This document shows, one piece after another, positions 21,740 to 39,736 of a stretch of 64,000 bases of DNA. Every line of letters begins with the position of its first letter. Position 1 is the stretch's first letter. A program made the position numbers and the translations under genes. Under the pieces are notes generated by a model. That model saw only the letters and a program-made list of their open reading frames with translations, was not told the origin of the DNA and ran no database searches. Source of the DNA: an uncultured Mycoplasma sp. (GTDB lineage Bacteria > Bacillota_I > Bacilli_A > Mycoplasmatales > Metamycoplasmataceae). The stretch is from positions 1 through 64,000 of the forward strand of contig CAMRBN010000003.1 of NCBI GenBank assembly GCA_947040455.1, given 5' to 3'.

Positions 21740-21985
21740 TTAATCTATAAAGTGCAATTTTGTTAATGCACTTGATTTTTCTTCGTATTTTTCTCATTTT
21801 GTTGTTGTGCCATCTTTCGCCTTCACTTCGCCCTTATCACTAAATAACAACTTAAATGATGAAACAAAAGAAGTTATTGCTGGAAGAATTATGGGAAATA
21901 AAGCACCCAAAAACATTAAAGAACTACCACCATAAATTTGAGAAGCTTTATTATCACTTATTTTTACAAATCCCTCATTTTTCAT
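21740..21985 (-). CDS. Small double-glycine-leader peptide, bacteriocin-like
   Basis: 81 aa after reading one TGA as Trp (KWEKYEEK). It begins MKNEGFVKISDNKASQIYGG. Counting back from Gly-Gly, hydrophobic residues stand at -4 (Ile), -7 (Ala) and -12 (Ile). That is the spacing of double-glycine leaders cut by C39-peptidase ABC exporters in class II bacteriocins and related peptides. The predicted mature 61-residue peptide starts with a hydrophobic helix of about 24 residues (LMFLGALFPIILPAITSFVS), then a charged tail with KGEVKAKDGTT. An AGGGAGGT ribosome-binding site lies 5 nt before the ATG, so it is well translated. No exporter or immunity gene is adjacent. Bacteriocin or signalling function is inference. 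Confidence 0.7.
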
Positions 21986-22078
21986 TCACACCTCCCTTCC
22001 ACATATATATTCCGCAATAAAGATGATTTAAATATTAAAAATAATAATTTGATACAAATGGTGTTTTAATTCCCTATT

Positions 22079-23071: not shown

Positions 23072-24625
23072 ATGTTGAAAAATCAAAATACAAAGAAAAT
23101 ATTTTATGAACTTAATCCATTATTTTTTTATGATGATAATGGTGATGGTTTTGGAGATTTTGAAGGTGTCTCAAAAAAAATGAAATATTTTTCCTTTATT
23201 GGTGTTGATTGTGTCATAATACCAGATATTTTTAATAACTACAGCACACTTCTTTTTAATTCATTTGTTAATTTAAAAAATAAATACGGAAATATGAGCG
23301 AATTAAAAAAAATGATATCTAATTTTCAAGATAAAAATATTGATTTTGCTGTTGAAATAAATATTAAAGACATTAAAAAATCATTATTATTTTCAGTTGA
23401 TGGGACAATTAATCAAGATGAATTTAAAGAATCTACCAAGGCTTTTTTTTTAGATAAAAATCAATCAGAAAATCAATCAGAAAATTGAAATTCACGAGCT
23501 ACTTTAGAAGCTTTTGATAAAATTATTAAATTTTGATTATCCTATAATGTTACTAATTTTGTATTTGTTAATTTTGAAAAATTATTTAATAAAAATGAAG
23601 TATTTAGTAGCGTTACAGAAGAGCAACTACAACAACTATACAAAATTACTAAAGAAATTGAATCTTCAATATCAGTGATTATAAAATCCGCTGCATTATC
23701 ACCAAATAATGTCAAAAATATTTTAGATCCAAATAATCGTTCTGGAGATTTATTTATTGATACATCATATTCTTTAATTGGAACACATCCAAAATATTCA
23801 AATGATAAAATCGACAAATTTAAACCTGCCAAATTATTTAAAAAAATAAAACAAAATTCCAAAGCAAAGATTTTAAAAGAGAACGTTGTTATGTCGTTGG
23901 GTTCATCGCTAACAGGAAGAATAAATTCAAGGTGAGGAAATGAAAAATCTTCAAACTCTTTGGCTTCAAAAGCATTGATGAGCATTTCTTTAGCAAGTTC
24001 ATCATCATCATTAATTTATTATGGAGATGAGCTAGGAATGTTGAAAATTAATATTAAAAATAACTCTGATTTTCATGATATTTATGCGATTGAAAGAAGA
24101 AGGTTGATGCAATCTCAAGGCCAAAATCAAAAAGATTTTTATCATGCCCAACAATATTTATCGCCAATAAATACGCAATCTTTATTCCAATGAGATAAAA
24201 CTAAAAATGGTGGGTTTTCTAATAATGACACAACAATTAGACAATTATCTACAACATATAAAGATATAAATGTTGCCAATCAATATAATAATCCAGATTC
24301 CTCATTGGCATATTTGAAGAAATTTATAGAATTTATTAAAAACCCTATTTATAATCATTTTTTTAATAGTTCCAAAAGTAACACAAAAATTAAATATATG
24401 TCAAAGGGAATTATTAAATACACTCATATATTTGGTGAAGAAAAACTATTTATTTTTATAAATATTTCTGAAAATTGAAAAAAAGTCAAGATTAGTGATA
24501 AATTGACTGTTGTTTTATCTAATTATTCTAAAAAAATTTATAACCACAAAATCAATATGCTTTCACCATTTGAATCAATTATTTTGTTCTCAAAAAAGGA
24601 TTATATTCAAGAAAATTTGTTATAA
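23072..24625 (+). CDS. GH13-family (oligo-1,6-glucosidase-like) protein lacking catalytic residues
   Basis: 517 aa. The N-terminus is clearly GH13: FYELNPLFFYDDNGDGFGD followed by KMKYFSFIGVDCVIIPDIF. Later blocks match MalL-type enzymes: LIYYGDELGML and QSLFQWDKTKNGGFS. But the three catalytic regions are changed. The region with the nucleophile Asp (normally like GFRMD) reads VTNFVFVNFEKLF. The Glu region reads SSISVIIKSAALS. The NHD region before SRWGNE reads MSLGSSLTGRINSRWG. The reading frame is open and the TIM-barrel outline is kept, so this is a maintained paralogue, not decay. It probably binds sugar, or another protein, without hydrolysing it; that is inference. Confidence 0.8.
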
Positions 24626-25820: not shown

Positions 25821-27029
25821 ATGAAAAAGAAATTATTAGGGGTTAGTGCTGTTACATTATCACTAATTCCCGTAATAGGTGTTGTTTCATGTTCAAATGA
25901 TCCAGTAGCCGCAAAAAAAAGTCAGACAATTCCAATAAAATTTCAAAATAGTATCACAAAGGATGATTCTGTTGATGCGATTTATGTTAAATCAGCAATT
26001 AATTGTGGAAGAAATCTCGATATAAAGAAAAAAGAATTAGCAAAATATTATGATATACCAAATTTAGGAAATAAATTAAGTATTGAAAATATAGAAGCAA
26101 ACATTGATTCTACACAAGGGCAAAATGTAAAAATCAATATTTTTATAAAAAATAAAGATCAAAAAATACCAAAAATGATGGAATTTATTATTAGTGGATT
26201 CAAGGAATTAGAAAGTGACATCATAAAAATGGATATTCATCCTAAACCAGCAATTTGATTAAATCAATTCAATAGTCTTTTAAGCAAATATAAAACTAGT
26301 GAAAACGCAAAAGCACAAATCAATATTCTAAATCAAATTTTTAATGGAATCAATATTGATAATTTGAATTCAATGATTATTGATACATCGAATAACAAAT
26401 TTACGTTAAGAGCAAAATTAGGATTTACATTTAGAACGTTAAATTCTAGTTCATTAAATACTATTACATCAGAAAATCCAAAATGATCTAGAGGAGAATT
26501 GACAAGAGATATAGTAGAAGAAAATTTAAACACTATTTGAAAAAATAAAATAATGCTTCATGCTTCTGATTTGGAAGGATATACATCTATTGGTGAATAT
26601 GCTTTTTATAAAATCACTGAATTCAATAGAATAGAAATTCCTGATTCAGTAATTGTTATTAAAAAAGCAGCTTTTGAATCAACGAGATTAAATGGAGGAG
26701 TTTTAATTCCTAATTCTGTTGTAGTTATTGAAAAATTTGCTTTTAGTAATAGTAATTTATATGAATTAGTACTTCCGACTTCCTTAGTTGATATTGGTGA
26801 ATTAGCCTTTGGATACAATAGACTAAGAAAATTGATAATTCCTAATTCAGTTATTAATATTGGTGATTCAGCATTTTTCCAAAATGATTTAGAAGATGTT
26901 CAATTTGGAATTTCTGTTAATAATATTGGTCATCATGCATTTAATAGAAATAGATTCATTGTTAACCCTAAATTGCCAAATAAAATCATTACTAGAGATG
27001 TGTTTGGAATATCATTAACTAGAAATTAA
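25821..27029 (+). CDS. Lipoprotein with BspA-like leucine-rich repeats
   Basis: 402 aa, crossing TGA Trp codons (for example 26257-26259). The lipoprotein signal is MKKKLLGVSAVTLSLIPVIG followed by VVSC, with the lipid-bearing Cys at about 24. Residues about 45-120 form a Mycoplasma-type globular region. About 240-400 hold at least five LRR_5 units of about 23 residues, each with IPNSV-x-IG-x-xAF (for example LIIPNSVINIGDSAF). BspA-like LRRs mediate adhesion or binding of host proteins in other bacteria; the role here is inferred. A GAGGGGAATAA ribosome-binding site precedes the ATG. Confidence 0.85.
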
Positions 27030-27675: not shown

Positions 27676-29088
27676 TTATTTTTTATTTTTTATTTTTTTA
27701 ATTCAAAAAATATTTAATGATCCTAGAGCGATAAATTCTGTAAATAGCAAACCAAAAATTATTCAAGTACTTTTAGAAAATCGAGACAAACCAAGATTAT
27801 TATTCGAATGAATATCAATTAAGCTCATTTTTTTTGTTTTAAACCCCCCTAAAATAATTTTGATAGGTTCACTTGTTGTATTTTGGATATTTCCTTTTTC
27901 ATCATAAAAATTTAGCATATTTAAAACAAAACTAACCTGTCCTAAATCTTCGTTTATATTTCATGAACAATTTATAAATTTAAACTCAAAATTTTCTGGG
28001 ACATCACCAATTTTAGATTTTAAAAATGATAAAATTTGGTCATCATTATAATCTTGTGGTTTGATATGATCAACATTATCCAATCAAAAAATTTCTGAAT
28101 TCAAAATATTGGAATTTATTTTTTTGAAGCCACTTAATTTTATTGAAGAGGGTTGATTTTTTTTCAAAGACTCTACACCATTCTGATTAAAATATTTATT
28201 CAAAACAACATCAACAGTTATAACTCCGTTTAAATTATCTCTACTTATAAAAGGTAAATCAATATTTGATAAATCAAAATCCAATGGTGTATATTCCAAT
28301 AATTGATTAAAGATAAGGTTTTTGATTTGCTCATCACTATATAAACTTGGCAGTACCTCCTTAAAATCATTAATTTCAATATTGTGGTTTTTCAAGTTTG
28401 TTTTTTGTAAAAGCCAATTAATTTGGCTTAATTGTTCTTTTTTCAAACCTAAAATGTGGTAATTTTCTTTGAAAAGATTTGATAGATTTAAGTGTTTTAA
28501 ATTTATTAAACCAAAAAATGCATCATTACCTATCGAAGTTAAGTTATTAGATGTTGATATATTAGACAACATCAAACAATTTTTAAATGCTGAATTACCA
28601 ATAATATTTATTGAATCAGGAATATTTATGTTTGTTATAGATGAAGAATCAAACGCTGAATCTCCTATAAATTTTAATGAAGAATTGTCTTCAAATTTTA
28701 TTGAAGTTAATTTTTTTGTTTTTTCGAATGCTGACTCCTGAATAATCAATATATTATTAGGAATTTCGATAGATATTAAATTCTGATTATTGGCGAAAGC
28801 TTTATTGCCAATTTCAACAACTTCAGGCAGGTATTGCTTTCAATCATTCAATAAAATTGAGGTTTTATTGTCTCAATTCATTTTTTTCACCATTTCTGGT
28901 GTTAATATTTTTTTGTTTGCATATTCATTAGCAAAATTATCACTATAAAGATTTGGTTGATTTTTAAAAATTACCTGTTTACTAATTTTAGTTTCAGTAT
29001 TATTGGAATTTGATGTCATAATCAACATAGTTCCCAAACTTGATAGTGATAAAATTGAAAATAAAATGCGTTTAACATTTTTATTCAT
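27676..29088 (-). CDS. Membrane-anchored BspA-like LRR surface protein
   Basis: 470 aa through several TGA codons. The N-terminus (MNKNVKRILFSILSLSSLGT) is a signal or membrane segment without a lipobox Cys. Residues about 85-175 hold LRR_5 units (ISIEIPNNILIIQESAF, NINIPDSINIIGNSAF). The middle part (about 190-400) has the spaced hydrophobic strand pattern seen in mycoplasmal surface proteins. A C-terminal membrane segment (IIFGLLFTEFIALGSLNIFW) with the basic tail KKIKNKK fits a stop-transfer anchor. It lies opposite the LRR lipoprotein at 25.8 kb and uses a different anchor. Likely an adhesion or binding protein. Confidence 0.8.
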
Positions 29089-29248: not shown

Positions 29249-30976
29249 ATGTGAGTAGTTTTTAAATTAGTAAATAAATATTTTTGAAAAGGTTTGATTG
29301 GACCACTATTTTCTTATATTCTTCCACTATTAATGTTATTGTTTTTAGGTTTAACTTTAGGTTTTGAATTCTTTTTTCCTGGTGGAGTAGCAATTAGTGT
29401 ATTGACAATCGGTTTGGTATTTATGCCCCAAAGTATTTTTGAATTTAAAAATTCCTCTTTGTTGAAAAGAATTGGAACAACACCAATTAATCCTTCAAAA
29501 TTTTTAATAGTAATTGTATTTTTTAACTTATTAATAATGGCTTCATCAATTTTATTTATGTTTTTATTTTCATTTTTAGTTTTTAAAGATAATTTATATG
29601 AATCAAGAATTTTCCCTGCATTTGACGGATCTCCTTATGTTGCACTAGGTTGAGTTGATACTCTTAAACATGTTGAATGAGGATCGTTCTTATACTCTAC
29701 ACTTTTATTAATTTTACTTACAATGATTATTGGGTTGTTGATAGCTTCTGTTGCAACATCTACTCTATTTATTCAAGGTGTAGGAATAACTTTAATGATG
29801 CTTGCATTCTTTATAGCTCCAGCTGTTCTACCTGTGGGAATGGTCGCGTCAGTTGATGCAATAAAATACTCTGGTTACATATTACCTTTTAAATATCCAA
29901 TTTCATTAATGATTGAAAGTTTTAATGGTTTTAATCCTGGCAATTCACATGAAGGCTTTATAATGAATGTTAATCATTCAAGTATTTGAGATATTAATAC
30001 AGAATATTCAATATTGAATACATTTGCAGGGTTAACTGGAGATCCAGAAAGTGAACTGGTTGTATTTGAAAAAATTGATAAAATTCTAAATCAAGTAATG
30101 CCTTACTTCTTTATAATTTTATTTGGATACTTTGCAATTGGTAAATTTTCATGAAGCACCAGATCATCAAATAAAATGAATTGAAACTTCTTGCCAACTT
30201 TTATTACAGCATTTAACAAAAATAAAAAGGCAATTAAAAATGCCGAAACTAAACCAGACTTAAATTCAGATTATATTATTCAGACTCACAACATTACTAA
30301 AACATTTACTGTTAAACGCAAGGATTTTGTTGCCAATAAAGATATTAGTATTAATTTCAAAAGAGGAGAATCTGTCGCCTTATTAGGTAGTAATGGTGCT
30401 GGAAAAACCGTTTTTGTTGAAATGGTTATGGGTTTAAACAAACCTGATGTTGGACATTTTAAATATAATTTTGAATTTAAAAAAACTTTTCAAGAATCTT
30501 TGGGTATTCAATTCCAAGATTCATCATATCCTGTTGGACTTAAATGTAAAGATATTGTCTTGTTTATGGTAGATGCTTACAATATCAAGTTGAAAAAGGA
30601 AGATCTTGAAAAATTAGTGGAAGAGTTTGGTGTTAAAGATTTTTACAATAAAGGTGCTCGTTCTCTTTCTGGAGGTCAACAACAAAGATTGAATTTGTTG
30701 TTGAGTATTATCCACAAACCCAAATTAGTATTCCTTGATGAATTATCAACTGGATTAGATATAAAAATTAGAACCAGTATTAAAAAATTTATTAAGAGTT
30801 TTGCAGAAGAAAATAATATGACAATTGTTATCATTTCTCACGATATGGAAGAAGTTGACTATTTAGCAGACAGAATAATTGTTTTAAAAGAAGGAGAAGT
30901 AGTTTCTGATAAACCAAAATCAGAAATAAAATCTCAATATCCTTCAATTGAACAATATTTAGAACAATATTTATAA
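29249..30976 (+). CDS. ABC-2 type half-transporter, permease fused to ATPase (copy 1)
   Basis: 575 aa. The N-terminal 300 residues are an ABC-2 type permease with about six TM segments (GPLFSYILPLLMLLFLGL near the start, LIASVATSTLFIQGVGI in the middle). The C-terminal domain (from about 345) is an ABC ATPase. It has the Walker A LLGSNGAGKTV, signature SLSGGQQQR, Walker B LVFLDELS and switch His IISHDMEEVD. Permease-ATPase fusion of the ABC-2 class is unusual in bacteria, where the two are usually separate genes. The ATG at 29249 has no Shine-Dalgarno; a TATTAT box lies 12 nt upstream. It may export drugs, lipids or peptides; the substrate is unknown. A paralogue follows directly. Confidence 0.88.
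30490..30976 (+). repeat. Near-identical block, copy A (ATPase 3' part)
   Basis: These 487 bp match 32298-32784 at all but two adjacent positions (30941-30942 CC versus 32749-32750 TT, giving Pro versus Phe). Upstream, the two genes differ at many positions. The boundary is abrupt, which indicates recent gene conversion or a recent partial duplication. Confidence 0.9.
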
Positions 30977-31038: not shown

Positions 31039-32784
31039 ATGTTGGTGGTTTTTAAATTAGTAAATAAATATTTTTGAAAAGGTATGATAGGTCCAATTTT
31101 TGCTTTTGGACTACCTTTGATAATGTTACTTCTTTTGGGTTCGATGTTAGGTAGTGAATTATTTTTTCCTGGAGGAGCTGCAATTAGTGTATTTACAATC
31201 GGTTTGGTATTTATGCCCCAAAGTATTTTTGAATTCAAAAATTCTTCTTTATTGAAAAGAATTGGAACAACACCTATTAATCCTACAAAATTTTTAATCA
31301 CTATTTTATTGTTTAATTTGATAGTAATGATTTCAACGATTATTATTGTCTTTTTATTTTCGTTTTTAGTTTTCCAAGATAATTTATACGAATCAAAAAT
31401 TTGACCAGGTTCTAAAGTTGTCAATGATGGAATTACCGAGATTGTTGGAATAGGTTGATTAGAAACGCTCGCTAATGTTGATTGAGGTTCATTCATATAT
31501 TCGATGTTTTTATTAATTTTACTTACAATGATTATTGGGTTGTTGATAGCTTCCGTTGCAACATCTACTCTATTCATTCAAAGTGTAGGAATAACTCTAA
31601 TGATGATGGGATTTTACCTTGCTCCTGCGGTTTTGCCTGTGGGAATGATTTCTTCGGTTGATACCCTTAAGTATATGGGTTATATATTGCCATTTAAATA
31701 CCCTGTTTCTTTAATGGTAGAAAGTTTTAATGGTTTTATGCCATCACCAAATTCTGGTCAATATATCACTAATATGTATAATTCAAATATTTGAGATATT
31801 GATGTAAATTATGCTATTTGAAATACAATAGGAACCGATAAAGAATTGATTGTCTTTAACAAAATTGATAAAATCCTAAATCATGTTATGCCCTATTTCT
31901 TTATTGTTTTCTTTACTTATTTTGCGATTGGTAAATTTTCTTGAAGTACCAGATCATCAAAAAAAATGGATTGAAATATTTTCCCTAACTTTATTAGTTT
32001 TGACAAAAAACAAAAAGCAATTAAGGGTTCTATATCAAAACCCGATTTAAATTCTGGATACATCATTGAAGCTCATGACATTACCAAGAGTTTTGTTGTC
32101 AAAGAAAAGAAATATGGTTTGAAAACTAAAAAAATAATTGCAAATAACAATGTTAATATTAACTTTAAAAGAGGAGAGAATGTAGCTATATTGGGCGGAA
32201 ATGGTTCTGGAAAAACTGTTTTTGTGGAAATGATTATGGGTTTAAACAAACCTGATGTCGGACATTTTAAATATAATTTTGAATCTAAAAAAACTTATCA
32301 AGAATCTTTGGGTATTCAATTCCAAGATTCATCATATCCTGTTGGACTTAAATGTAAAGATATTGTCTTGTTTATGGTAGATGCTTACAATATCAAGTTG
32401 AAAAAGGAAGATCTTGAAAAATTAGTGGAAGAGTTTGGTGTTAAAGATTTTTACAATAAAGGTGCTCGTTCTCTTTCTGGAGGTCAACAACAAAGATTGA
32501 ATTTGTTGTTGAGTATTATCCACAAACCCAAATTAGTATTCCTTGATGAATTATCAACTGGATTAGATATAAAAATTAGAACCAGTATTAAAAAATTTAT
32601 TAAGAGTTTTGCAGAAGAAAATAATATGACAATTGTTATCATTTCTCACGATATGGAAGAAGTTGACTATTTAGCAGACAGAATAATTGTTTTAAAAGAA
32701 GGAGAAGTAGTTTCTGATAAACCAAAATCAGAAATAAAATCTCAATATTTTTCAATTGAACAATATTTAGAACAATATTTATAA
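31039..32784 (+). CDS. ABC-2 type half-transporter, permease fused to ATPase (copy 2)
   Basis: 581 aa, with the same plan as copy 1. The N-terminal permease has GPIFAFGLPLIMLLLLGSM, the ATPase Walker A is ILGGNGSGKTV, the signature is SLSGGQQQR, and Walker B and the switch His are identical to copy 1. The TM part differs from copy 1 at many residues, mainly in the extracytoplasmic loops after TM2 and TM5, so the pair may form a heterodimer or handle different substrates. The ATG at 31039 lies about 15 nt after a TATGAT box and lacks a Shine-Dalgarno. Confidence 0.88.
32298..32784 (+). repeat. Near-identical block, copy B (ATPase 3' part)
   Basis: Partner of 30490-30976, offset 1808 bp; see copy A. 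Confidence 0.9.
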
Positions 32785-35224: not shown

Positions 35225-35353
35225 AAAAACATTGCTTTTTTTATTTTTTTTAAGCCAACTTGTTACTAAAATAAAATAAAGTAAATAAAAACAAAATTTT
35301 AAAATTTATATATACTTTATTATACATAAAGTATTTTGTACAAGGAGTTTTAT

Positions 35354-38300
35354 ATGAAAAAGAAAAAGATATTTCAATCAATTATCGCAATTTCTGCAAT
35401 AATTTCACTACCTTTAGTAATTATTGCTACTAACAATCCAAATAATATAAACAATATTAATAGTAAAGAGAAAAAATTAGATAAATCAAAATTTAAAAAT
35501 CTAAAAAACGCTGAACAAATTTTTATTTCTAACCCAAACGCTCTAAAAGATTTAGATTTTGGACAAATAAGAAACTTATTAGAAACTATTGTCATGACTG
35601 AAGAGATATTGACTCAACTCTCTATCACAATGCCGATAGAAAGTGATCCTGCTAAAGTTTCTTTTACCAATATTAAAAATGAATTGTATAAAATAACATT
35701 TACCATAAATTACAATGGAGTTCCTAAGAGTACTTCTGATTTCCTAAATACAACACCCACAGATCAAGACATAGCAAATTTTATATATATTGAAAACACT
35801 GATGCATTAATTGATAAAAATACAATGTTCATCAAAGATTTGTTGGAAACTCCTAATATGACGTCAGAAATTTTGAATCAAACATCAGTTACAATACCTG
35901 TAGGTTCTGACCCTACAAAAATTTCATTTACCGAAATTAACATTGACAACCCATTAAGAGTTTCTTTCAAAATTAATTACAACGGCACTGCAAAACAAAC
36001 TTCAAATTTTCTAAATGCTTCTGCAACGGATTTGGAAATTGTAAATAAAATATCAGTTGTTGATCAAAATATCTTAAAACAAATGGATGTCATTTCTATA
36101 AGAAGAATTTTAGAGACAAGTCCAATGACATCCGAAATTTTGAGTCAACTTTCAATCAAAATTCCTGAAGGAATAAATATATCTTTGATTTCTTTTTCTG
36201 AAATTAACATTAGCAATCCATTTATGATCACTTTCATCATTAATTACAATGGAACTCCTAAAACATCTTCAGATTTTTTAAATGCCACATTAACTGATCA
36301 ACAAACCGCTGAAAGAACAATAATTGAGAATGTTAATATTTTACAAGATCAAAATATTAATAACATTAATAGCCTTTTAGAGACAAGTCCAATGACAAGA
36401 GAAATTTTAGAAAAAATTTCTTTGAAATTACCACAAGGTGCCGAACCTAAAAAAGTATCGTTTACTGATATAAATATTGACAATCCCTTTAAAATTACTT
36501 TTGTAATTAATTATAATGGTGTTCCAAAATCAACACCAGATTTTTTGAAAGCTAAACCAACAGATAAAGAAACAGTGGAATCGATAATGGTAAGTAACCC
36601 GGATATTCTTAAAGACAAAAATATTACCTTTATTAAAAATTTATTAGAAGCTCCTGTGATGACACAAGAAATTTTGAATCAACTTTCAATTTCATTGCCA
36701 GAGGGTGGACAAGCAAGTAAGGTTTCGTTTACAAATATTGACTTATCAAATTTATATTCTATTTCATTCAAGATTAATTACAATAGAGTATCAAAACGCG
36801 AAGTAGATTTTTTAAATGCTACACCAACAGATAATGAAGTTGCATTAGCAACTACATTAACTAATCCAGACATTATTAGACAAGAAACTGTGAATTTTAT
36901 TCAAACAATTCTTGAATCTCCAACTATGACACAAGAAATTTTAACCCAATTGTCAGTTAAAATTCCTGAAGGTTCTCGTCCTGAATTATTTTCTTTTACA
37001 AATATTAATATCAACAATCCTTTTAAAATAACTTTTACAATTAATTACAATGGCTCTCCTAAGAATACTGTAGATTTTTTAAACGCAACACCCACCGACT
37101 CTGAAATATCTAGCACAATACTAATTACTAATAATGAAATTATGAAAAGTAGAAAAGTAGGTGAAATTAGAAATATTTTGGAAACCAAAGTAATGACAAA
37201 AAAAATTCTAACTAGTCTTTCAATAAATTTGGCAGAAGGTGTTGATTCATCTTTAGTTACTTTTTCGGATATTAATATTGACAATCCATTAAGAATTACT
37301 TTCACCATTAATTATAATAGAGTGCCAAAGAGAACACCAGATTTTTTGATTGCAGAAGCTAGTGATGCAGAAGTTGTTGATTCAATAGTTATTGCTAATG
37401 TTGATGCATTAAAAGATTTAAGTGGTATTGAAATAAGAGATTTATTAGAAACGAGTCCAATGACAATGGAAATCCTTGACAAACTCACCATTAAATTTCC
37501 TCTAGGTGCAGACGTAAGCAAGCTTTCCTTTACAAAAATAAATATAACTAATTTATTCAAAGTTACTTTTACAATTAGCTATAACTCTGTTGTTAAAACA
37601 TCTCCAGACTTTTTAAGCACTACACCAAAAGATCAAGAAATTGTAAATAAAATAAGTGTAAGCAATACAAATATTTTGAAAAGTCAAGATGCACTTTATA
37701 TTAAAGGATTATTAGAAACCAATCCAATGACTTTACAGACCTTACACAAACTTTCGATAATCTTTCCTGAAGGGGCTGATTTATCTAAAATATCAATTAC
37801 AAATATCAATATTGACAATCCATTAAGAGTTACTTTCACCATTAATTATAATGGAGTTCCCAAAACAGCAACAAACTTCTTAAATTCAACACCAAATAAT
37901 CAAGATGTTGTAAATTCAATAATTGTTACAAATGTTGATGCGGTATCCAATTTAGGTGTTGAAAGAATTAGAGATTTATTAGAAACAAAACCAATAACTC
38001 AAAATATCTTGAATCAACTTTCAATAGAAGTTCCTGTGGGTACTGAAATTTTTAGAATTGCATTTGAAAATATTGTAATTACTAATTTGTTCCAAGTAAC
38101 TTTTACAATAACTTATAATGGAGTAGCTAAAGATACAAGTGATTTATTAACTTCAACTCCCTTAAATCAAGATATTGCAAATTCTTCAATTGTGCTTGAC
38201 AAAAACATTTTAATTAGTCAAAATGTAAAATTTGTTAAAAATCTTCTAGAAAAAAATCCGATGACTGCAACAATATTGGAAACACTTTCTATTGCAATAC

Positions 38301-39736
38301 CTGAGGGTTCATTGCCTGAAAAATTTTCATTTACAAATATTAACATTGACAATCCATTAAGAGTTACTTTCACCATTAATTATAATGGAGTGGCTAAAGA
38401 AACAAATGATTTCTTAAGAACCACAGCAACTGACTTGGAAGTAGTAAATGTTATTAGTGTTAAAAATAAAGATATTGTAAGATTGGAAAATGCTGATTAT
38501 GTCAAAAAATTATTAGATAAATACCCAACCAACAAAGATATACTTAAAGAACTTTCTATAGAATTTCCTGAAGGAGTTGATTTATCTAAAATATCATTTA
38601 CAAATATCAATATCGAAGATCCCCTTAAAGTTGTATTTACAATTAATTACAATAATGTACCCAAACCAACTAACGACTTATTAAATGTAACTCCTACACA
38701 AGTTATTGCTGATGCCATAATAATTGAAAATGTTGATGTTTTGAAAAAAGAAAATGTTGATTATATTAAAAGTTTATTAGAAACAAATCCAATGACTGCA
38801 GAAATACTTGAAAACCTTTCTATAATATTGCCAAAAGGTGTTAATCCAAACAAAATTTCCTTTACTAATATTGATACTAGTGATTTATTTGTAATAAAAT
38901 TTGATATTAATTATAATGGTGTTGCTAGCAGTAAAGATACCTTCTTCAACGCTACTCCTACAGACAAAGATATTGCAAATGCGATTTCTATTGAAAATTT
39001 TGATATATTTAAAGAAAAAGATGTTGAATTTGTTAAAGCATTGTTAGAAACAAATCCAATGACTGCAGAAATTTTAACTCAACTTTCTATAAAAGCTCCA
39101 AGTGGAATTGATATTTCTAAAATTACTTTTACAGAAATTGATATCAATAATCCAGACATGATTACTTTTAAAATTAATTACAACGGAATTGTAGGAGATA
39201 AAGTATTTTCATTTAATATAAAAGCTCCTCATTCAAATACCATTTTAATTGTGTCAATAGTGATTCCGATCAGTATACTAATTATCGTGGCCGCATTAGC
39301 TACAGCATTATTAATTAGAAAAAGAAATGGAGAAAATTTTAATTCTTCAAAAAAACTTGAAAATAAACCTATTCAACTTGAAAGTAAAAAACCTATTGAA
39401 AATAAAAATAAATACCAAGAATACACTAATGAAATATTTAATAATCCAGCAGATAATTCATTTGGTTTTGATAATAATAATCAGCAAAATGGTCAAAATG
39501 ATCAATGATATCAAAATCCACAAGATGGTCAATGATATCGAAATCCACAAAATGGTCAAGGTGACGAAAACAATAACCAGTGAGATGATAACCAATGATA
39601 TGGTGATCAATCAGAAACTGGTCAATGAGATAATGGACAATGATTTGACAATGAAAATTATGATGACAATGGTCAATATATAGGTGATTCTCCTGAAGAT
39701 GATTGAGATGATGGCATCCAAATGATTGAAAAATAA
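35354..39736 (+). CDS. Giant repeat surface protein with membrane anchor and Q/N/W-rich tail
   Basis: 1460 aa. The start is set by AAGGAG 7 nt before the ATG at 35354. A signal sequence (about 1-30, IIAISAIISLPLVIIATN, no lipobox Cys) is followed by 14 repeats of about 90 residues covering about 45-1295. Each has a stretch like IKNLLETNPMTAEIL, then LSIxxPEG, SFTNINIDNPLRVTF, INYNGVPKxTxDFLN. A TM segment (TILIVSIVIPISILIIVAAL) and basic RKRN follow. The last 130 residues form a cytoplasmic tail rich in Gln, Asn, Asp and Gly with seven TGA-coded Trp in QWY/QWD/QWF settings. The repeats suggest a rod-like extracellular region; function unknown. Confidence 0.85.
35480..39230 (+). repeat. Fourteen in-gene repeats of about 270 bp
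   Basis: The INYNG-type motif recurs 14 times. Several units share long identical nucleotide runs, for example the stretch starting TTGACAATCCATTAAGAG at about 37273, 37813 and 38343, while others are diverged. This points to intragenic recombination that could change repeat number between strains. Confidence 0.8.

Follow-up and report, generated by a model that had tools for sequence, protein, structure and literature searches.

A conserved double-glycine peptide as candidate cargo of the C39 exporter of wall-less bacteria

Does a wall-less bacterium export a double-glycine peptide and, if so, through which transporter and as what kind of product? This question is raised by a small gene in the window, i.e. 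the stretch of 64,000 nucleotides from an uncultured Mycoplasma sp. (Metamycoplasmataceae) that was analyzed here as a whole. A first-pass annotation had described an 81-aa product with a leader ending in Ile-Tyr-Gly-Gly, and indeed both the product and the coordinates given for it proved to be exact. From the sequence comparisons described below we consider it probable (roughly 0.85) that the gene encodes an orphan core-genome substrate of the mollicute C39 exporter (PCAT) of the Mbov_0121 family, which would be cut after Gly20.

The precursor gene extends from an ATG (21985-21983) to a TAA stop codon (21742-21740) on the minus strand of the window and has to be read with code 4, since its single TGA (21796-21794) encodes Trp64. 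The strong ribosome-binding site that had been claimed for it, AAGGGAGGT, is present, and AGGAGG-like sites were also found upstream of the starts of most homologues. The leader of the window peptide is MKNEGFVKISDNKASQIYGG. Hydrophobic residues had been claimed for its positions -4, -7 and -12, which is true for -4 and -12 (both Ile) and weakly so for -7, where the weakly hydrophobic Ala is located; position -8 is Lys, with Glu being usual there. The hydrophobic helix and the charged tail with KGEVKAKDGTT are likewise present, the hydrophobic segment comprising residues 23-41 with a mean KD of 2.19. An AF2 model of low confidence (mean pLDDT 57.9), which was too poor to be used for a fold search, predicts a helix (residues 18-48) and two strands (51-55 and 61-65). 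Comparison with orthologues from three congeneric genomes gave dS values of 0.49 to 0.91 and dN values of 0.04 to 0.23 (dN/dS about 0.08 to 0.26); as dN is well below dS, we conclude that purifying selection acts on the reading frame. The features of the gene are compiled in Table 1.

Table 1 Features of the double-glycine peptide gene in the window.
Feature	Coordinates	Strand	Basis or remark
81-aa double-glycine precursor gene	21740..21985	minus	code 4; family in 131/135 genomes; dN/dS 0.08-0.26
Ribosome-binding site AAGGGAGGT	21990..21998	minus	4 nt 5' of ATG; read from sequence
Leader, residues 1-20, ...Ile-Tyr-Gly-Gly	21926..21985	minus	register kept in 69 homologues
Predicted cut, 3' of the Gly20 codon	21926/21925 boundary	minus	inferred
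Hydrophobic core helix, residues 21-48	21842..21925	minus	KD and AF2 model (low confidence)
G-E-V-K-x-K ... K-W-E hairpin-like motif, residues 51-65	21791..21835	minus	conservation in 69 homologues; model strands
Variable charged tail, residues 66-81, aromatic near C-terminus	21743..21790	minus	homologue comparison

In the window, the peptide gene is flanked by holA and a hydrolase gene. A hairpin with a 7-bp stem followed by a T-rich run overlaps its 3' end on the plus strand (21750-21773; -7.2 kcal/mol, z -1.8); it was missed by the pattern scan and is possibly the terminator of the convergent hydrolase gene. Elsewhere in the window, we noted a 517-aa glycosidase-like protein (23072-24625, plus strand), which reached 119.7 of 799 bits with a phosphotrehalase model, far under the cut-off, and which may represent a family 13 enzyme that is degenerate or has diverged. 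Next come two surface proteins with BspA-like leucine-rich repeats (25821-27029, plus strand; 27676-29088, minus strand), the first of which is lipoprotein-like (SCSN) and matched the model of the adhesin HupY with 51 bits. Two tandem ABC-2-type transporter genes on the plus strand (29249-30976 and 31039-32784), whose C-terminal ATPase parts are near-identical, apparently go back to a recent duplication or gene conversion. Finally, a 1466-aa surface protein (35336-39736, plus strand) is built from numerous repeat units, each some 80 residues long (...LLETxxMTxEIL...SFTNINIDNPxxxTFxINYNGVPK...) and has a transmembrane segment at its C-terminus, together with a tail rich in Q, N, W and D.

Searches of Pfam and NCBIfam gave no match to the window protein with E values up to 1. 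A single-sequence search revealed one copy in the window genome and matches in 83 of the 135 genomes of the GTDB family (referred to as f1), and profile searches increased this number first to 130, with 122 of the 124 near-complete genomes among them, and then to 131; G124, G132, G134 and G090 are among the weak members within the final count. The suggestion of the annotation that the tail may define a family was borne out, as the tail and the open reading frame occur together once per genome in these 131 genomes, and nearly always there is one peptide locus per genome. Among the 69 peptides over which residue conservation was counted, the residue at -1 is small without exception (Gly in 44, Ala in 22, Ser in 3) and Gly is located at -2 in 53, i.e. 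the Gly-Gly is conserved in homologues. The signature of the family lies in the tail, which reads G-E-I-K-x-K ... K-W-D with an aromatic C-terminus: G52 is conserved in 67 of the 69 peptides, E53 in 61, K55 in 66, K63 in 67 and W64 in 66, and all 69 have an aromatic residue within the last five positions.

The peptide gene has no constant functional neighbor. The adjacent genes differ by genus and are mostly housekeeping genes such as rplU, directly 5' of which the peptide gene is located in 16 loci of f1; rplU thus represents a recurrent position and not a constant partner. A mobile or viral origin was rejected, since a plasmid search with the peptide gave no match and the lone match to a viral contig, comprising 24 residues, was taken as chance. 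Models of defense systems gave no match either.

The annotation had likened the leader to those of peptides processed by C39-peptidase ABC exporters, and indeed a complete exporter of this type is encoded in the window genome. With such an exporter and with Gly-Gly-bearing homologues both found, the annotation's view of the leader is supported. The single C39 domain of this genome lies within a 677-aa protein together with ABC membrane and ATPase domains, the C39 motifs are complete (Gln, DCG, His-Tyr and Asp-Pro), and the protein reached 673.9 bits with NCBIfam NF045998 (Mbov_0121 family; cut-off 500). Across the family, 133 of 135 genomes have C39, among them every one of the 124 near-complete genomes, and the best solved relatives, both over full length, are PCAT1 (7e-41) and ComA (8hf4, 3e-38). 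The exporter gene is followed by genes for a MAG1140-family small membrane protein, ybeY, cdd and era, which were named by inspection, and a similar gene order with small changes is present in the M. genitalium-like genome G289 and in a Spiroplasma/Mycoplasma-like family (f7). A genetic linkage of peptide and exporter was rejected, as the two are not neighbors. As a side observation, the MAG1140-type gene is located right behind the PCAT gene in f1 and in a further family, f8 (L032:6102-6545; L298:4489-4890; L295:2148-2531), and none was seen in f7; its product is a possible accessory subunit, and a ComB/HlyD-type accessory was rejected for want of a structural match.

Peptides of this kind are found beyond the family of the window. 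They were detected in 51 of 60 genomes of f7 with a profile seeded from weak matches, and in 65 of 95 genomes of f8 with a further, weak profile; as the profiles A3 and A4 were made from earlier matches, both counts are to some extent circular. In several f7 genera, the peptide gene has rsmI on one side and rplU on the other, and an hhalign comparison of f1 and f7 gave 98.5% over 66 columns. The order rsmI-peptide-rplU in f7 together with peptide-rplU in f1 supports orthology independently of the profiles. The comparison of the window group with f8 gave 96.2% over 41 columns, comprising the leader and the helix only. One f7 genome that still has C39 carries a frameshift that splits its peptide gene at the rsmI-rplU position (L310, G195:C2:260466-260740), and in two f8 genomes (G295 and G216; L304 and L306) tandem pairs of different GG-leader peptides are encoded, so that the rule of one copy fails there. 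G289, which we take to be M. genitalium, has a gene for the exporter and, 5' of mraZ at the place of MG220, one for a GG peptide. This peptide reached 138.9 bits with NCBIfam NF045747 (MPN313 family; cut-off 100); the window protein did not match this MPN313/RrlA model, and G043 from its family encodes a peptide with 16.5 bits (E 0.0085) against the same cut-off. Overall, relatives of the window peptide are common to nearly all of its family and to much of its order.

Peptide and exporter are lost together. In f7, 49 genomes encode both C39 and peptide, 1 has C39 only, 2 have the peptide only and 8 have neither (Fisher p=1.5e-7, kinship ignored), i.e. C39 is absent in 8 of 9 peptide-less genomes and the peptide in 8 of 10 C39-less genomes. 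The joint table of f7, f1 and f3 reads 179/4/3/19 in the same order (p=4e-20, kinship ignored), and when only the genus g30 is considered, 13 of 14 genomes are concordant (p=0.005); the association in f8 reached p=0.02 only. All these p-values are inflated by shared ancestry. One partner without the other was encountered in G159, G153 and G164, and in the last of these, which is without C39, the retained peptide has GV in place of GG.

The cleavage site and the protease also changed jointly. In 14 genomes of the genus g12, Pro, Val or Ala occupies position -2 of the peptide, and in the same genomes His-Met or His-Leu replaces His-Tyr in C39 and, with one exception, DCS, DCA or the like replaces DCG, these residues adjoining the catalytic Cys and His. 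The association between Gly at -2 and Tyr at His+1 of C39 was significant (p=2e-8). In an exporter tree built without the C39 domain, however, the 14 genomes are found on one branch (support 97/85), which corresponds to one change, and this p-value therefore overstates the joint change. Three genomes deviate in part from this pairing: G093 and G092 have GG peptides together with DCS and His-Phe or with DCA, respectively, and G055 combines Ala at the site with DCG and His-Tyr.

Taken together, the complete exporter, the occurrence of exporter and peptide as single copies in nearly every genome of the family, their joint loss, the joint change of the -2 residue and C39 residues, and the small -1 residue in all 69 peptides support the view that the peptide is cargo of this exporter, and the best reading of the sequences is that it is the main exporter substrate and vertically inherited. 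The leader would dock on the C39 domain, whose catalytic Cys, within the motifs Q, DCG, HY and DP, would cleave after Gly20, and ATP-driven transport would bring the 61-residue peptide across the membrane, the sole envelope of these cells, to its outer face. The mature product, with its hydrophobic helix, hairpin-like motif and aromatic C-terminus, may be membrane-active and, with one membrane and no wall, would reside in or on the cell surface or be released. Because of its single copy, vertical inheritance and lack of a fixed partner gene, it is most likely a conserved envelope factor or short-range signal and not a bacteriocin that kills rivals.

Among the alternatives, we regard it as a tentative possibility that the peptide is secreted and works as a signal or regulator similar to ComC; it would be matured by the exporter and, outside the cell or in its membrane, would turn on gene transfer and recombination, MG220 (RrlA) being the signal for sigma-20. 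The full-length resemblance of the exporter to ComA and the peptide of G289 at the MG220 position are consistent with this. In a review, RrlA (mg220) is described as a transmembrane sigma accessory protein, which is required for the activation of sigma-20 in a feed-forward loop (PMC9262362). It is reported to be required for sigma-20-dependent recombination. However, an MG428-like sigma factor was convincing only in the genus g45, and for this reason the signal function is kept as a rival; in the family of the window, the candidate for sigma-20 was rejected, as the match to PF08281 is an unconvincing 72-aa open reading frame. The restriction of the homology with the f8 group to leader and helix further argues against this function. 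That an ancestral competence-like circuit is common to wall-less bacteria, in which a PCAT-matured orphan peptide steers recombination or gene transfer and which was kept through extreme genome reduction, appears to us quite unlikely; so far, the action of RrlA on sigma-20 in M. genitalium would be its only known instance.

A class II-like bacteriocin or a cannibalism peptide aimed at other mollicutes, the former being one of the two kinds of product named by the annotation, is unlikely. The type of leader and the Gly/Ala-rich hydrophobic core would fit, with TIGR03949, a model for class IIb bacteriocins, a relative in G208 scored 21.5 and thereby just reached the cut-off of 21.5, and a further relative matches Pfam Bacteriocin_IIc weakly. 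However, neither an immunity gene nor an exporter adjoins the peptide gene, whose neighbors vary as described above and which gave no plasmid match; unlike the genes of usual bacteriocins, it is conserved as a single copy almost throughout the family, and dN/dS within the genus is low. It is very unlikely that the Gly-Gly is left uncut in a small membrane protein while the exporter handles a different substrate or takes up lipoyl-lysine, the function proposed for gene 0401 of JCVI-syn3A for want of a peptide candidate (PMC6609329): some homologues are without Gly at -2, but nearly all of these pair with changed C39 residues, the -1 residue is always small, and peptide and exporter are lost together.

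The reading as orphan exporter cargo can be compared with several known systems. ComC-ComA has in common with the window a GG-type leader and a PCAT with C39, the exporters being alike over their full length; it differs in that the window peptide is unlinked to its exporter, has a helix of transmembrane length and a conserved tail, and is near-universal in its family. PCAT1 (4ry2, 6v9z) has the same architecture as the exporter and is its best structural match, a likeness between the exporters, and differs in that it does not serve a wall-less cell with an orphan cargo from the core genome. With RrlA/MG220, the window peptide shares the GG-type leader, the hydrophobic helix, the single orphan gene and an exporter of the same kind in the genome, but the tail of RrlA is different and RrlA is tied to sigma-20, for which the window's family gave no convincing match; the RrlA/sigma-20 system corresponds in outline to ComC-ComA-ComX. 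Class II bacteriocins (PF10439, TIGR03949) share the type of leader and the hydrophobic core, but the window protein matches neither model, is encoded in a single copy and has no immunity gene.

The closest counterpart of the exporter problem is gene 0401 of JCVI-syn3A (M. mycoides), an exporter of the same kind that appears to belong to the Mbov_0121 family; in the genus g35, probably the M. mycoides group, the order at the exporter is DJ-1-PCAT-ybeY-era-recO. No double-glycine peptide candidate was identified for the C39 transporter 0401, and lipoyl-lysine import was tentatively assigned to it (Breuer et al. 2019, PMC6609329); the same paper, citing Dirix 2004, states that other C39-bearing mycoplasmas are likewise without peptide candidates. 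In the literature searched, we found no account that presents these peptides as substrates of a PCAT. PCATs, double-glycine peptides, NF045998, MPN313 and RrlA are already known; what is new is the connection of these parts and the order-wide orphan cargo. The rsmI-rplU interval on the Mycoplasma/Spiroplasma side of the order and MG220 in M. genitalium are the loci to inspect, and the series of cleavage sites from GG to PG and VG, matched by changes of the protease, provides a natural set of variants. The function of the orphan exporter thereby becomes directly testable. The peptide family also suggests that the export of peptides belongs to the core functions of wall-less cells. A C39 exporter is kept even in the synthetic minimal cell, and the family supplies, once per genome, a candidate cargo of the kind that was reported absent there.
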